Assembly (NCBI GenBank): GCA_023807065.1
Contig: JAJJLU010000350.1
Coordinates: 18,524-82,523 of the forward strand
DNA length: 64,000 nt
From: Isotricha intestinalis
Taxonomy: Eukaryota; Ciliophora; Litostomatea; Vestibuliferida; Isotrichidae
Reading direction: 5' to 3'
Part shown: positions 11,514-64,000 of the stretch, one piece after another
How the letters are laid out: the number at the start of each line of letters is the position of its first letter
Numbering within the stretch: the stretch's first letter is position 1
Notes under the pieces: generated by a model
The model's input: the letters and a program-made list of their open reading frames with translations, nothing else
Databases searched by the model: none
What the model was told of the DNA's origin: nothing
Translations under genes and position numbers: made by a program

Positions 11514-12032
11514 ATGTCAAAAGTTCTTTACTTTTCCCTTTTAATAGTTTTATCAGCATCAGCTTCATTATCAAGATTTGAAGATGTACTTTTAATGGCA
11601 AAAAAATCAGGTGATATGTCAAAATATTTAAAACCAACAAAAAATTGTCAAGTAAACGACAAATCTATTCAAAGTAAAGCAAAAAGTTTATCAAGTGGAA
11701 GTGAACGTGAAAAAGCAGAAAAAATATTTCATTTTGTTCAAAGACAAATTCCATATGAAAGATATTCAAATTCAAGATATGGTGCAGTTAGAACATTAAA
11801 AAGAGGAAAAGGAAATTGTTGTGATCAAGCTCATTTATTAGTTGCTTTATTCCGTGCTGCTGGTCTTCCTGCTAGATACTTACATGGAAATGATCATTGG
11901 TGGACTGATGTTTATGTTGGTGGAAAATGGTATCCTTGTGATCCTACTAATCAAAGACATCAATTCGGAAAACCTGATCATAAAGGAAAACAACCTAAAA
12001 ATCCTTCTATCCATATATCCTTAGATCATTAA
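11514..12032 (+). CDS. Secreted transglutaminase-fold protein, pseudomurein endoisopeptidase-like (copy 1)
   Basis: The protein has 172 residues. A signal peptide covers about residues 1-18 (LLIVLSASAS). A YLKPTKNCQVND segment follows at 38-49, then the transglutaminase-like core: GNCCDQAHLL with the predicted nucleophile Cys102, His128 (DHWW) and Asp143 (CDPTN). The combination of YLKxTxNC, RYGA-x2-TL, GNC-x-DQAHLLVAL, RAAG-x-PARY-x-HG and a short 170-residue length is what I recall from Methanobacteriales and archaeal-virus cysteine peptidases that cut the Lys-Ala isopeptide bond of pseudomurein. Animal transglutaminases are much larger. An exported enzyme acting on methanogen walls, in a food vacuole or outside the cell, is the leading hypothesis. 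A general cysteine peptidase is the alternative. The triad is intact. All of the family assignment is from memory. Confidence 0.85.
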   Translation: MSKVLYFSLLIVLSASASLSRFEDVLLMAKKSGDMSKYLKPTKNCQVNDKSIQSKAKSLSSGSEREKAEKIFHFVQRQIPYERYSNSRYGAVRTLKRGKGNCCDQAHLLVALFRAAGLPARYLHGNDHWWTDVYVGGKWYPCDPTNQRHQFGKPDHKGKQPKNPSIHISLDH

Positions 12033-12419
12033 AATATTTTTTTTAATAGTAAAATTTTAAATTTGTAAAAAAATAATTTTATATTCATCCTTAACAAAAA
12101 AGATATAATATTTAATATTTCATATTTCACTAATCCTTTATATATTTTATTTGAATAAGAAAAAGAGAAATTTAAGAAAGAATTAAGAGCTTAAATTTTT
12201 TAATGAAAATTATTAATATTTATCAAAATAAATAAAATTTTTATTCTTAGATTAATAGAAAATGTAAATCTTATAAATATGTTATCAATTATCTTCTATT
12301 AATTTTTCAATACTTATTATTTATTTTTGATAATGATGTTTTAAAAATTTAATTTATTCAAATAAAAATTCATATCAATTATATAAATATTTATTCAATT
12401 AATTAAATAAATTATAAAA
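12033..12419. other. Intergenic spacer between transglutaminase-like copies 1 and 2
   Basis: This is 387 bp of A/T-rich DNA without an ORF, RNA gene or clear repeat. Confidence 0.4.
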
Positions 12420-12932
12420 ATGACAAAATTCCTTATTTTTTCTGTTGTAATAGTACTATCAACATCAGCATCATTAAATAGTATAGAAGATGTAGTATTA
12501 ATGGCAAAAAATGATATGTCAAAATATTTAAAAGCAACAAGAAATTGTGAAGTATCTCATTCTTCAATTAAAAAGAAGGAAGAGAGTTTAACAAAAGGTT
12601 CAAGAACAATTCGTCAAAAAGCAGAGAATATATATAATTTTGTAAAAAAGAATATAAAATATGAGAGATATGCAAATTCAAAATATGGTGCAGTAAAAAC
12701 ATTATTAAAAGGACAAGGAAATTGTTGTGATCAAGCACATCTTCTTGTTGCTCTTTTACGTTCTGCTCAAATTCCTGCTAGATATGTTCATGGAAAAGGA
12801 CATGTTTGGGCTGAAGGTTATGTTGATAATAAATGGGCTCATTTAGATCCTACAAATCAAAAACATGGATTTGATAAACCTTATAGTCATAAAAACGATA
12901 AAACTACAAAACATGATACTTTACCTTTTTAA
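12420..12932 (+). CDS. Secreted transglutaminase-fold protein, pseudomurein endoisopeptidase-like (copy 2)
   Basis: The protein has 170 residues and is a close paralogue of the gene 387 bp upstream: same signal peptide type (VIVLSTSAS), same IEDVxLMAK segment and same numbering of the predicted triad (Cys102 in GNCCDQAHLL, His128 in GHVW, Asp143 in LDPTN). The GHVWAEGYV segment is even closer to the canonical family form than in copy 1 (DHWWTDVYV). The C-terminus after about residue 150 is short, Lys/His-rich and differs from copy 1. Export to the secretory pathway is predicted; it has no membrane anchor. Same strand, tandem arrangement and sequence similarity indicate local duplication. Codons are A-ending in the 5' half and T-ending in the 3' half, as in native genes nearby, so the gene is adapted to the host. 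Confidence 0.87.
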   Translation: MTKFLIFSVVIVLSTSASLNSIEDVVLMAKNDMSKYLKATRNCEVSHSSIKKKEESLTKGSRTIRQKAENIYNFVKKNIKYERYANSKYGAVKTLLKGQGNCCDQAHLLVALLRSAQIPARYVHGKGHVWAEGYVDNKWAHLDPTNQKHGFDKPYSHKNDKTTKHDTLPF

Positions 12933-13282
12933 ATTTTTAAATGTTTTTTTATTTATTTTGAAATAAAAAGGAAATTAATATTAAGATATTAACACTTTAT
13001 TTTTTTTAAATTTTTAAAGTCACTTAAATTTATTAGATTTGGTATTATAAAAATAATAATTCTTTTTATTATTGTTATTTTCTGGAAATTAATAATTAAA
13101 TGTTAAAAAAAAAAATTATGAACCTATACATGGAATTTATAATTTTTTAAAAAAATGAAATTAATATTAAATATTAAAAAAAATTATTTAAATAAATGAT
13201 TCATTGAAAAAAATTAATTGTAAAATAATATAAAATAAAATTATTTTTAATAATTTTAATTGTTTTCACTGAATATTACAAT
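12933..13282. other. Intergenic spacer before the decayed transglutaminase-like copy
   Basis: About 350 bp of A/T-rich DNA with several poly-A and poly-T runs. I see no gene or repeat in it. Confidence 0.4.
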
Positions 13283-13648
13283 ATGGAAAAAGAGATTAAT
13301 GATATATTAATTCCATGTGATGATTCTTCATATTTAAAAGAGACAAAAATTTGTGAAATATTAATTTTATTAAAAAAAAAAATCATAGGAATTAAGAAGA
13401 GGAATAATAGTAAAACGTAAAAAAGTTGAGAAAACTTTTTTTGTTAGAGAGAGATATAATTAAATTTAAAAAATAACTAAATACAAAATTAAGTGAAATA
13501 AAAACATTAAAGAAAAAAAAGAAAATTATTGCGATCAATCAAATTTATTATTTCTCTTTTAAGAGCTGCTAAACTTCTATTACATATCAAAATTGAAAAT
13601 GAACTTATGCTAATCATTTATACAAACATGTTTGATTTCTTGTGTTGA
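13283..13648 (+). pseudogene. Decayed fourth copy of the secreted transglutaminase-like family
   Basis: Short stretches in different frames match the neighbouring paralogues in the right order. First comes INDILIP...SSYLKETKICEI (from the ATG at 13283), matching IEDVVLM...SKYLKATRNCEV. Then VKRKKVEKTFFVRERYN (about 13410-13460) matches IRQKAENIYNFVKK...YERYAN. Then KTLKKKKENYCDQSNLLFL (about 13503-13560) matches KTLLKGQGNCCDQAHLLVAL, and a shifted RAAKLL follows. In-frame stops and at least two frameshifts separate these pieces, and the position of the catalytic Cys is Tyr. The signal peptide region is not recognisable. This is a dead relic of the family lying between the active copies, evidence that the family turns over at this locus. 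Confidence 0.8.
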
Positions 13649-13883
13649 TTGAAATGGGATGTTTTACCCCCTTCTTCTAAAAAAATGAATATGATATAAT
13701 AATAATTGAATTAGTCAAAGAAAATTAACAATTCTACAGAATCACCTTTTTAAATTATTTTAATTTTCTTTATATTTTCTCTTGATGAAAAATGAATTAA
13801 TCATTTTAAAAAGTATATCTTTGATATTTTTAAAAGATTTGTTTCAATAAATTTGAAATAATAATATATGAAAGAAAATAAAT

Positions 13884-15131
13884 TTAGAATTTTATATTAT
13901 TCAAAATGTCTGCAATTTTATTTGTAATAGCAGCAATTAATATTTTTTTATTATTCATATTAAATTGATATTCCTTATTATTATTATTCAGATCAGGAAT
14001 TTCATTAATTGGATTATAAGGATCTCTAACATTTTTTCTATATTTATTACATGCACTAACACATTCAGGATCATCTTTGCATTTTTGAACTTCTTCAATA
14101 AAACTTCCACCTAAAAATCCACCTCTATAATTGACACAATAATCATCATAATTTTTAGATATAGAAACTCCTTCAATATAATGGAATAATATAAATCTTA
14201 AACCTACAGCTTAAGCAATTCCCATTCTTATAGAGCATTCATTTGGAACCACATTGTAATATTTGAAATGTATTTACTTGGTGTCCTGGTTTATCTATTA
14301 ATTCTACTATTCTATCTCTTGTTTCTAAATCAAATCCTCTATGTTTTAATGCATCAATTTGATATGTTTCTGTAGCAAGAATTATTGTATGATGATTTAA
14401 AAATGTTTGAAAAATTGGAAAATATTTTTCATAATATTTGGGGAATGCTTGTCTATTATAATTAGCGTATTCTTTAAATTTTTCAAGAACTTTATTAGCA
14501 TTTAAATTAAGAATTGAATGTAAATTCTGATAAAATTTAGCTATTAAAGACTTTTGAATTATTTCTAATTCAGCTAAAGTAAATCCTCTTCTTTCATATC
14601 TATGTTTATTTTTACAAATTTTAAAGAATAAAATATAATGACAATCTTCATATTGAATTACATTATATTGATAAATTACTTTTCCACTTGTATCACCTTT
14701 AATATAAGCAAAATAAAGAAATTTTTCATCTAATCTTGTTGCAATTCCGAATACATTTTCAATTTTAGTTTTTGTTTTTTCATGATAATAATTAAAATTT
14801 TCATAACCAACATTACTATTACTATATTTAATTGATTTAAATTGCAAGATTATTTTTTCTGGGAAATTATGTGTTCTTCTTAGTGAATCTATTTCAGAAA
14901 AAAGAATTTTATCAAATATAACTGAAGTTGAACTTGTTAAATCAGTTACATATTTTTCATATTCTTTAGGATAGCCTTTAAATAAATCTTTATTAACTAA
15001 TTTTTTAATCCTTTAATAAGTTTTTGTTTTGCTTCTTCTTTTGAAATAAGAAGATTCGGAATTATATGTCTTTCTGATGATGCAAATGTTATTGATATAA
15101 TAATGAGTAATAAGGAAATTAGATTTTTCAT
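13884..15131 (-). pseudogene. Broken gene for a secreted protein of unknown family
   Basis: Coding-direction start is the ATG at 15131 with a clear signal peptide (MKNLISLLLIIISITFASS). The frame is then lost at an A6 run near 15000-15006, where one extra A would restore it. A 202-residue open stretch follows (14847-14239), starting without a Met. Near 14240-14260 the frame shifts again and an in-frame TAA (about 14213) interrupts MGIA-AVGLRF. The rest runs to a TAA at 13884 and includes Cys-containing segments (DDYCVNYRGGF, CKDDPECVSAC). A 43-nt GT...AG removal would fix the second and third lesions together, but its GTGGTT start is unlike the other introns here. It is either a pseudogene or a gene with assembly indels. 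I recognise no family. It lies inside the transglutaminase-like cluster, on the opposite strand. Confidence 0.7.
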
Positions 15132-15565
15132 TTTTTTATAAAAATTTTTTTTTTCAATAAGCTAGATATTTCTTTTTATTTTTTTATTTTTTTTATCAAA
15201 ATAAATTAAAATAATTCTTTTTTTAATTCTTAAATATTTATAAAAGTAAAAACTATTTCTATTAATATCAAAAAATATCAATATATTTTTATTTAATAAA
15301 ACTTGTTCAAAATATTGCATTTTTTTCTTAAAAAACTTTAGGAACAAATTCTAATGAAGAATAATTATGTTTTTATTGGTTTTTAATTTTTATTTTTCTT
15401 ATAAATAAAAATCATAATTTAAAATAAAAAAATTATACTTATTATTGAATTCATTGAATATAAAAAATTACAAAAATTAAATTAAAAAATTTATATCCAA
15501 ATTATAATAATAAATAAATCAATTTATTATAAATAGTAATTATTTAAAATAATCATAAAGAAAAA
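15132..15565. other. Divergent intergenic region before transglutaminase-like copy 3
   Basis: No gene is supported; a 61-codon frame on the minus strand here is an A/T artefact. The element AATTTATTATAAATAG at 15531-15546 is identical to the one upstream of copy 1. Confidence 0.45.
15531..15546 (+). promoter_or_regulatory. Shared TATA-like upstream element, copy 2
   Basis: This is the same 16-mer as at 11467-11482, ending 19 bp before the ATG at 15566. It is not found in front of copy 2 at 12420, which has only a shorter AAATTATAAAA. Confidence 0.35.
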
Positions 15566-16099
15566 ATGAAAAATTTAATAATCTTTGGATTTTTAATAGT
15601 ATTTGCATTAAGTCAAAAAGATAAGAAAGAAGAAAACTTAGCTCAATTTTTAAAAGCAACAAAGAATTGTGAAGCCGGTGATGAAAAATTTAAAAAATTA
15701 GTATTAAACTTAACAAATGGAGTAAATGATACATATAATAAAACAAATAAGATTTTTAAATATGTAAGAGACAAAGTAAAATATAAAGTATATTCAGGTA
15801 CAAAATTAGGAGCATTAGCAACATTAACTAAACTTCAAGGAAATGCAGTTGATCAAACTCATTTATTAATTGCTTTATTAAGAACTGCTGGAATTCCAGC
15901 AAGATATAAAACTGAAATTGTTAGCTTAAGATTCGGTACTTTAGGTCATGTTTGGACTGAAGCTTATTTCAAAGGAAAAGGTGATTCTCAAGATAAATGG
16001 CATGATTTAGATCCTACTTCCTCTAAAAATACTTTGGAAAAAATTGCCAACTGGAAAAAATTAAAAAAAGGAAAAACTTCAGCTCAATATACTCTTTAA
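15566..16099 (+). CDS. Secreted transglutaminase-fold protein lacking the catalytic Cys (copy 3)
   Basis: The protein has 177 residues with a signal peptide (about 1-16) and the family segment FLKATKNCEAGD at 28-39. In the core the usual GNC reads GNAVDQTHLL: Ala94 replaces the nucleophile. His128 (GHVW) and Asp149 (DLDPTSSKN) remain. The end, DPTSSKNTLEKIANW, is closer than copies 1 and 2 to the archaeal pseudomurein endoisopeptidase pattern as I recall it, and there is a longer insert before GHVW. The ORF is intact and conserved in other positions, so it may be a pseudoenzyme (binding, inhibition or regulation) rather than a decaying gene. It is more divergent than copies 1 and 2 are from each other. 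It lies downstream of two pseudogenes. Confidence 0.85.
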   Translation: MKNLIIFGFLIVFALSQKDKKEENLAQFLKATKNCEAGDEKFKKLVLNLTNGVNDTYNKTNKIFKYVRDKVKYKVYSGTKLGALATLTKLQGNAVDQTHLLIALLRTAGIPARYKTEIVSLRFGTLGHVWTEAYFKGKGDSQDKWHDLDPTSSKNTLEKIANWKKLKKGKTSAQYTL

Positions 16100-61941: not shown

Positions 61942-63755
61942 ATGAAAAATGCAAGAAAAAAAGATAATCCAGTTAAACTTCCAAATCTTTCACCTTCAAA
62001 AAATCAAGGAAAAAAAACAAGATATCCAAAATTAAATAATTTAAATATAGAAGAATCACCAGAAAAAGAAAATATACCTAATAAAACTTTACCAAATTTT
62101 CTTCCTCAAACATCACTGAAATTAATACTAATAATAAAACAGCACAAAATTTCAGAGCTCAAACAGCAAAAAATAGAAATTTTAGAAATTCTTTTTTAAA
62201 TCCTCCAAAATTATATTCTCCTGCTAAAAAAGAAAAATATGCATATAAAGGAAAACTTCTTCCTCCAATTCCGAAAACTTTATTAGAAAGATTAGTTTTA
62301 TTAAGAAAAATATTTACTTCATTTAGATTTTTAGATTTTGTTGATCATGCTCCTCCAAAAAATTTAAATGATATTGAAACAGTTGCTAAATATTTATATG
62401 AATATAAAAATGATTATGTTGAATTAGCACATTATATAAGTATATTTTATTATGTTTGTACAAGAATGACATATGATATTAAAGGAGTAAATAAAGATCA
62501 AAAAGATTATGAATTAATATTTAAAAATGGTTTATGTAATAATATTCAATTTTGTAAAATATTTGAATATATGTGTAAAGCAAATAATTTAAAATTTAAA
62601 CACATTAAAGGTTATTGTAAATTAATGGATAGACCTAATTTTAAAAGAGGAACAGATGTAAATCAAATTAATCATTCTTGGGTTGGTATATATATACAAG
62701 GTGAATGGTATTTTTGTGATCCTTTTTTTGCAAGTGGTGGTTTTGATAGAAATGAAGAATTAAAAGATAAGAATTTTAATCCTTATTTTTTTATTACTGA
62801 TCCACAATATTTAATTGAAACTCATAAACCTATTGAAGATGATTGGCAATTTTTACCTAAAACCATAACAGCAAAACAATTTACAAATAAAAGAATTGTT
62901 AATTTAGGTCAATTTTATAAAAATGTATATGAATACGAAATTGAATTATTAACTCATAAATATCCTGTTATTCATTGTAATATGTTTTTAATAATTAAAT
63001 TAAAATTACAAAATATGTTAATTCAATGTACATTATATAATTCAACATTTAAAACAAAAATTTCAGAAGTTAAATTTAATTTTGATGATAAAAAAAGTAT
63101 ATATTCATTAGAGCCTAATTTTCCTAATAATGGTGAATATTGGCTTAGTATAACATTTCATCCTTATGGTTCAAATGATCCAGAATATAAACCTTTAATT
63201 CATTATAAAATAATAGTAGATGATTCTCAAGAAAAATATTTAGAAATGATAAAACAGAAGAAAATATTAAATGAAAAAAAAGAGAAATTTTTAGAAGAAA
63301 TGAAACAAAAAAGACCTAAAAGTGTTAGATTACCTTCAATGGGAACAATAATAGATAGAGATGAAGCTTATGGAAAGAAAAAAAGTAAAATATGTTTAGA
63401 TAATCATTGTGCTCATTTAATTGAACCTAAAGGAGGAAGTTCTAGTGTTAAAATTGGTGTTGAAACTAAATTTAAAATTAGAATTGATGATGATTCTATT
63501 GGTGTTTGTATTTTAGATGATCATGATTTTATTTATTTAAAAAAAAAAGATAAAAATATTTGGGAAGGAAATGTTGTTATTCAACATGAACATTTTACTA
63601 TTTGCTCTTTGAAACCTAATAATGTTTTAACTGAAGTTTATAGAATGAATGCACATTATGCTACTAGTAAATTACTTAGGATGCATAATTTTAGAAAGGA
63701 AAGAGAAAAGGATAAGGATAAAGATAAGGATAATGATAATAATTTGGAAAAATAA
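61942..63755 (+). CDS. KY-type transglutaminase-like protein, frameshift needed
   Basis: A 53-codon N-terminal frame (ATG at 61942, basic and Pro-rich) must shift by -1 to join the long frame, giving 604 residues. The natural junction is AAATTTT at 62094-62100, read A-AAT-TTT in the first frame; no GT...AG intron fits there. One missing T would have the same effect. The core resembles kyphoscoliosis peptidase (KY): GLCNN with predicted nucleophile Cys199, His245 (NHSW) and Asp260 (CDPFFASGG), all present. The C-terminal half (about 300-590) has two beta-rich domains and a Lys/Asp-rich tail. KY-type proteins are cytosolic cytoskeleton-associated; no signal peptide is seen. It is unrelated in origin to the small secreted cluster. 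The stop lies about 210 bp from the telomere. Confidence 0.8.
62094..62100 (+). other. Slippery heptamer AAATTTT at a required -1 frame change
   Basis: The 5' frame reads CCA AAT TTT CTT and ends after 85 codons; the 3' frame reads AAA TTT TCT TCC and is open to 63755. X XXY YYZ phasing is correct for -1 ribosomal slippage. Either true frameshifting or a one-base T-run error explains it. Confidence 0.5.
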
Positions 63756-63966: not shown

Positions 63967-64000
63967 TTGGGGATTGGGGATTGGGGATTGGGGATTGGGG
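63967..64000 (+). repeat. Telomere, GGGGATT repeats
   Basis: The window ends in four complete GGGGATT units plus GGGG, preceded by TT (TTGGGGA read the other way round; CCCCAAT on the complement). The G-rich strand runs 5' to 3' towards the end, as in a right-hand chromosome end. The unit is close to but not the same as the Tetrahymena unit GGGGTT. Confidence 0.9.

Follow-up and report, generated by a model that had tools for sequence, protein, structure and literature searches.

The gut ciliate Isotricha intestinalis carries, in a 64,000-nucleotide stretch of its genome (contig JAJJLU010000350.1, positions 18,524 to 82,523, forward strand; the whole stretch is called the window below), three genes for short transglutaminase (TG)-type proteins whose closest named relatives belong to Methanobacteriales, part of them with pseudomurein-binding repeats (PMBR), and to a methanogen virus. 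Judged from sequence comparison, the ciliate family was most likely acquired laterally from a methanogen-type source, and its archaeal or viral affinity, taken alone, is highly probable. For the complete chain, in which the ciliate would hold a secreted family of archaeal or viral descent that cuts methanogen walls, the chances are put at about even.

The three genes lie on the plus strand (Table 1) and each encodes a hydrophobic leader (Kyte-Doolittle maxima 2.55, 3.02 and 3.19 for genes 1, 2 and 3 in an 11-residue window; leaders were judged by hydrophobicity, without a signal-peptide predictor), a [YF]LK-x-T-[KR]-NC segment and a PF01841 domain. The Pfam scores were 76.5, 81.9 and 70.8 bits (E 2.3e-21, 4.9e-23 and 1.4e-19) against a cut-off of 23 bits, a match beyond chance in every case. 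The original prediction, made from the DNA letters alone, had named three such genes with a core of GNC-x-DQAHLL, GHVW and DPT; genes, segment and domain were recovered, but GNC is absent from gene 3, and the quoted strings occur together only in gene 2, genes 1 and 3 departing from them as listed in Table 1. The codon use adapted to the host that it had proposed was borne out by the GC content at third codon positions (GC3), which was 0.087, 0.076 and 0.107 versus 0.073 in 18 chosen neighbouring open reading frames (ORFs).

The TG genes sit on a ciliate chromosome. The host genome (G000) comprises 57.3 Mb in 2153 contigs, and the window occupies the right-hand part of contig C150 (82,523 bases), which terminates in a telomere marking one chromosome end; none was seen at the opposite end. 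(CCCCAAT)3 was found at 1586 sites in the host genome (840 + 746), the listed places being at contig ends, and the reversed control at 0. Among four further contigs that hold family members, one telomere was seen, on one side of C282. The gut trichostome Muniziella cunhai is described as having (CCCCAAT)n telomeres, the standard code, AT-rich codons and TAA as the commonest stop (PMC11316547); telomere motif, code and AT-rich codons are the same in the host, where 17 of the 18 chosen window ORFs stop at TAA and one at TGA, whereas GC content differs (26% in Muniziella versus about 18% in the window). Comparing host uL2 and alpha-tubulin with solved structures gave no closer placement of the host, the top uL2 row being a chain with a duplicated segment rather than a near relative. 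Genes for ARMC9, a calcium-dependent protein kinase, a PUF protein and an ABC transporter lie near the TG genes. Because the window itself ends in a host telomere, contamination is very unlikely, and telomeres and gene density indicate that the chromosome is presumably somatic. An assembly contaminant or an ordinary eukaryotic transglutaminase family would be a very improbable source of these genes: the host genome does contain 36 PF01841 matches (30 with loci), but the telomere, the eukaryotic neighbours, a second collinear contig (C1321, below), the host-like GC3 and the six generic TGc rows, which formed a long branch of their own in the quick tree described below, all speak against it. The anaerobic ciliate setting assumed in the original prediction is in keeping with three [FeFe]-hydrogenase matches in the host genome (one with internal stops; the top one open over 508 aa), which fit an anaerobic, hydrogen-making cell. 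The [FeFe]-hydrogenase frame L123 on contig C237 begins with a hydrophobic, signal-like segment and contains a stretch rich in lysine and glycine.

At least eight clear family members (34-67% pairwise identity) and two weak matches to long generic frames were found in the host genome. A family hidden Markov model built from the eight members and eight archaeal, bacterial and viral rows gave 58 bits or less for re-scored generic host frames versus 243 and 180 for two members in the same file, scores in which members are favoured because the model includes them. By this comparison of sequences the family and its relatives are distinct from the generic transglutaminases of the host. A profile search of 5.8 billion proteins yielded 232 matches, of which 120 were listed. 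At the top stood short proteins closely resembling those of the ciliate (P0006 shares 99% identity with gene 2); the rest were mostly longer, 20 of the 120 with PF09373 (PMBR) and others with PF12386. The few named entries among the matches listed came from Methanobrevibacter, Methanobacterium and two Riflebacteria. A search of named prokaryote genomes yielded 121 loci, of which 80 were retained, 77 of them from Methanobrevibacter, Methanosphaera, Methanorudis or Methanobacteriaceae and the other three from two 'archaeon' entries and one Riflebacteria; identity of the ciliate proteins to the kept archaeal loci reached 53%. Because this search used a single pattern around GN[CA][CV]D[QK] and thus favours that motif, it under-counts bacterial forms that have different letters there. 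Starting from the bacterial-looking protein P0056, fn3, Big-domain and PF26182 proteins were retrieved beside archaeal PMBR proteins. Named relatives span Methanobacterium, Methanobrevibacter, Methanosphaera and Methanothermobacter. Seven phage records matched, the best being Methanobacterium virus Drs3, present twice. In a viral collection, 0 of 6 candidate stretches were positive with gene 2 alone, 1 of 38 with the family profile, 0 of 15 with Drs3 and 1 of 2 with the viral relative L119, the latter being its own contig.

Nine relatives were scanned for domains. PMBR combined with a C-terminal TG-type domain was present in L039, L040 and L101 (Methanobrevibacter, Methanorudis), Big_3_5 domains preceded the TG-type domain in three Methanosphaera proteins, Riflebacteria L102 and viral contig L119 carried PG_binding_1, and L054 had none of these. 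By domain order, not sequence, the archaeal relatives were matched to the TG-type Group III adhesin-like proteins that PMC11532034 describes from Methanobrevibacter and Methanosphaera. They share their C-terminal domain with the ciliate proteins from YLKxTxNC to the last residue, with identical Cys-His-Asp positions, but those examined are mostly several hundred residues long with Ig-like domains and in part PMBR, whereas the ciliate proteins consist of the domain alone behind a leader. The Drs3 protein (AXN53416.1) also contains the shared domain, at 37% identity, and differs by two PMBR stretches in front of it and by a long branch in trees; its gene lies two genes after a tail protein. An hhalign comparison of the eight members with this protein gave a probability of 99.9 over 140 columns, reaching the last residue; against PeiP it gave 63, over the Cys half only. 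The predicted fold was transglutaminase-like (pLDDT 90), and the catalytic fold of PeiP and PeiW matched it, though not as the best match; the VIA-align comparison was limited to gene 2. This anatomy would fit descent from methanogens walled with pseudomurein, the source being the domain that ends their surface proteins or the lysins of their viruses: the catalytic module (YLKxTxNC ... GNC-x-D ... H-x-W ... D-x-[TS] ... LPF) would have been wholly retained, the archaeal anchoring and pseudomurein-binding parts are absent, and a eukaryotic-style leader is present.

For phylogeny, 320 domains were cut, of which 167 remained after clustering. A quick tree of 155 rows (12 generic host rows dropped) was rooted on six generic host TGc rows and placed 30 ciliate rows in one clade (support 89), beside Methanosphaera, viruses and Riflebacteria (37 rows, 98) and inside Methanobrevibacter; long and oddly composed rows were flagged, including at least two of the six root rows. 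In a careful, unrooted tree of 81 hand-thinned rows, 24 ciliate rows lay on one side of a branch (98/92), and nine fn3-type rows (99/95) joined L039 and P0153 (99/84) inside Methanobrevibacter, so that they look like recipients. The approximately unbiased (AU) test rejected the union of ciliates with 14 gut Methanobrevibacter-group rows (p 7.6e-5); unions with Riflebacteria (0.139), viruses (0.362), Methanosphaera (0.253), Methanosphaera plus viruses (0.308) and fn3-type rows (0.097) were not rejected. Of the predicted methanogen or virus affinity the relationship stood, while nesting within Methanobacteriales was not secured. Candidate donors are a Methanosphaera-type archaeon, a virus or Riflebacteria. 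We infer the direction from archaea to ciliate not from a rooted tree but from two observations: the family is distributed across Methanobacteriota genera, and no named eukaryote is among the matches listed, most of which are nameless, the genome collection being prokaryotic. That the donor was instead a bacterium, Riflebacteria-like or gut Firmicutes-like, is unlikely: the AU test does not reject ciliates with Riflebacteria or with fn3-type rows, and most transfer candidates in expressed sequence tags (ESTs) of rumen ciliates are reported to cluster with bacteria (PMC1413528), but the fn3-type rows have the position of recipients and the named relatives cover four Methanobacteriales genera. 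Gut fn3 bacteria were considered as donors and set aside on their nested position, yet with the AU result left standing. The bacterial-looking fn3 proteins with the shared domain are P0056, P0073 and P0123-P0129, and P0073, P0123, P0126, P0128 and P0129 have no catalytic Cys.

Contig C1321 (L171-L173) is collinear with positions 2400-32660 of the window, the six flanking blocks that match best having about 83-93% identical nucleotides. Amino acid identity was 90% for ARMC9 (94% over the whole protein), 86% for the PUF protein, 93% for a PABP-like protein, and 75% and 85% (the latter over 94 residues) for two further neighbours. The TG genes at the same site were much less alike, C1321a being 52% and 56% identical to genes 1 and 2 and C1321b 46% to gene 3. 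With neighbours at 75-93% and TG genes at 46-56%, sequence comparison indicates that the TG genes at this site turn over while their neighbours stay. The interrupted frame between genes 2 and 3 behaves about like the adjoining TG genes, with 50% amino acid identity to its C1321 version; its longest piece has 202 aa and starts from TTG, and no Pfam match was found for the intact C1321 protein. Of the decayed family copy, the N-terminal part (13229-13357) was found by tblastn (E 5.4e-5) and the rest by eye, in scattered frames. C1321b falls in the careful tree beside C1461 and P0007 and apart from gene 3; the low identity may therefore reflect differential loss from an older array just as well as fast divergence. 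C1321 and the window region may be duplicated chromosomes of one cell or may come from two related strains. Near-identical, divergent tubulin gene pairs about 0.1 kb apart occur on contigs C1462, C1640 and C1974 (three pairs), a hint of duplicated chromosomes or mixed strains. Comparison of flanks of about 1.5 kb (less on one side of C1461) revealed no neighbour shared by C911, C1461 or C282 with the window except a kinase similarity at C911.

Table 1. Features of the window (positions in the 64,000-nucleotide stretch)
Feature	Position	Strand	Description
Gene 1	11514..12032	+	TG-type with leader, 172 aa; GNCCDQAHLL, DHWW, DPT; Cys/His/Asp triad present
Gene 2	12420..12932	+	TG-type with leader, 170 aa; triad C102/H128/D143; GNCCDQAHLL, GHVW, DPT; C-terminal LPF
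Decayed family copy between genes 2 and 3	~13229-13750 (end approximate)	+	tblastn and reading by eye
Interrupted frame with leader-like start	13842..15135	-	73.5% nucleotide identity to intact 421-aa ORF of contig C1321
Gene 3	15566..16099	+	TG-type with leader, 177 aa; GNAVDQTHLL; Ala at catalytic Cys
Another transglutaminase-like frame, near telomere	62430-63755	+	PF01841 32 bits (whole-genome search); ORF from 62466 without Pfam match at 1e-4
Telomere (GGGGATT)n	63969..64000		End of contig C150 and of window; one ciliate chromosome end

Gene 3 probably encodes a pseudoenzyme, since its predicted nucleophile is replaced by Ala. The same replacement is present in two metagenome proteins, P0010 (97% identity to gene 3) and P0016 (70%; 76% over tree columns), so the loss is not an assembly slip, and Ala also occupies the Cys position in a host paralogue on C911 and in P0005. 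Among 75 ciliate-type rows (picked by a length below 186 aa, seven archaeal- or bacterial-like rows having been removed by hand, with two host paralogues counted twice), Cys was kept in 70 and His and Asp in all 75; the remaining 143 protein rows had Cys in 127, Asp in 10, Ser in 4 and Pro in 2. The family member L007 (contig C282) has 138 aa, no leader and H-W-W instead of H-V-W; metagenome proteins P0039-P0041 and P0044-P0048 (139 aa) resemble it, which suggests a non-secreted branch of the family.

The proteins of genes 1 and 2 would use Cys-His-Asp to hydrolyse isopeptide links in methanogen walls, either within food vacuoles or on the cell surface, and that of gene 3, its nucleophile lost, would at most bind. 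PeiW and PeiP, with the same fold and triad, cut the Ala-epsilon-Lys bond in pseudomurein (PMC4592898). The lysin-like viral relative favours cutting, and for a predator whose genome shows GH25 and NlpC/P60 matches already, a methanogen-wall cutter would be a gain. The fullest version, a fast-turning, multigene secreted arsenal against pseudomurein, taken from methanogens or their viruses, in which active members cut and Cys-less ones bind as decoys, inhibitors or tethers, is possible but falls somewhat short of an even chance.

Several points weigh against wall cutting and archaeal descent. The original prediction had called these proteins pseudomurein endoisopeptidases, and membership in the PeiW/PeiP family (C71) was rejected: PF12386 (cut-off 22 bits) gave 13.9 bits for gene 2 and no match for genes 1 and 3, whereas PeiP itself scored 318.5, and PF09373, which PeiW and PeiP have, was absent from genes 1-3 at E up to 10 and from the host genome in a search whose controls were silent. 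Exported Methanobacteriales transglutaminases were proposed as cross-linkers by Lupo et al. (PMC11915815), a supplementary figure legend of Leahy et al. takes much the same view (PMC2812497), and no report of hydrolase activity of the archaeal homologues was found in the literature searched. Gene 3 has no catalytic Cys, and bacterial relatives exist (Riflebacteria, fn3 proteins). Finally, a set with distant archaeal and bacterial TGs as outgroup (91 rows) gave no placement of the root, owing to long-branch joining, and the ciliate rows were not one clade.

Two other functions were weighed. Enzymes of the same origin might cleave, inside food vacuoles, bacterial peptidoglycan or isopeptide bonds in general, methanogen walls being secondary. 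The PG_binding_1 domains of the Riflebacteria and L119 relatives, the GH25 and NlpC/P60 matches and the reportedly highly bacterivorous habit of Entodinium caudatum (PMC6925433) would agree with this, but 77 of the 80 kept named loci are from Methanobacteriales and relatives in part carry PMBR, which makes it a doubtful choice. The proteins might also be true transglutaminases that cross-link proteins or surface material (pellicle, secreted mucilage) or glue partners to the cell, with no wall hydrolysis. This would have the published cross-linker view behind it if the group concerned, OG0000044 of PMC11915815, corresponds to the ciliate family, and it is rendered improbable by the lysin-like position of the Drs3 gene, by the greater gain that a virus would presumably draw from lysis than from cross-linking and by the loss of Cys in two ciliate lineages.

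PeiR, the other known methanogen lysin besides PeiW and PeiP, has an unrelated C39 domain (PMC6189367). Acquired murein hydrolases are already known in protists: Trichomonas vaginalis has laterally acquired NlpC/P60 enzymes (PMC6299479), likewise a protist with prokaryotic wall enzymes, but those are bacterial and act on murein, whereas the ciliate family is archaeal-type with a putative activity. In the open-licence literature searched, neither a methanogen-wall-type family in a eukaryote, nor this family in ciliates, nor a eukaryotic enzyme acting on pseudomurein was found. Among 148 candidate transfers in ESTs of rumen ciliates, two cluster within Archaea, and 'transglutaminase' is absent from the main text of that report (PMC1413528). 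If the cutting reading is true, the ciliate family would, as far as the searches show, have no eukaryotic predecessor among enzymes for the pseudomurein wall, and it would be an archaea-to-eukaryote transfer that expanded, Cys-less members included, at a site of gene turnover. It would also supply tools for lysing methanogens: small enzymes of a single domain that carry no binding repeats. Through their association with methanogens, ciliates of the rumen are credited with 9-37% of the methane formed there (PMC10838670); should the family cut pseudomurein, ciliate digestion or control of methanogens would become testable, and the ways in which ciliates digest, tame or keep their methanogen partners would be directly accessible.

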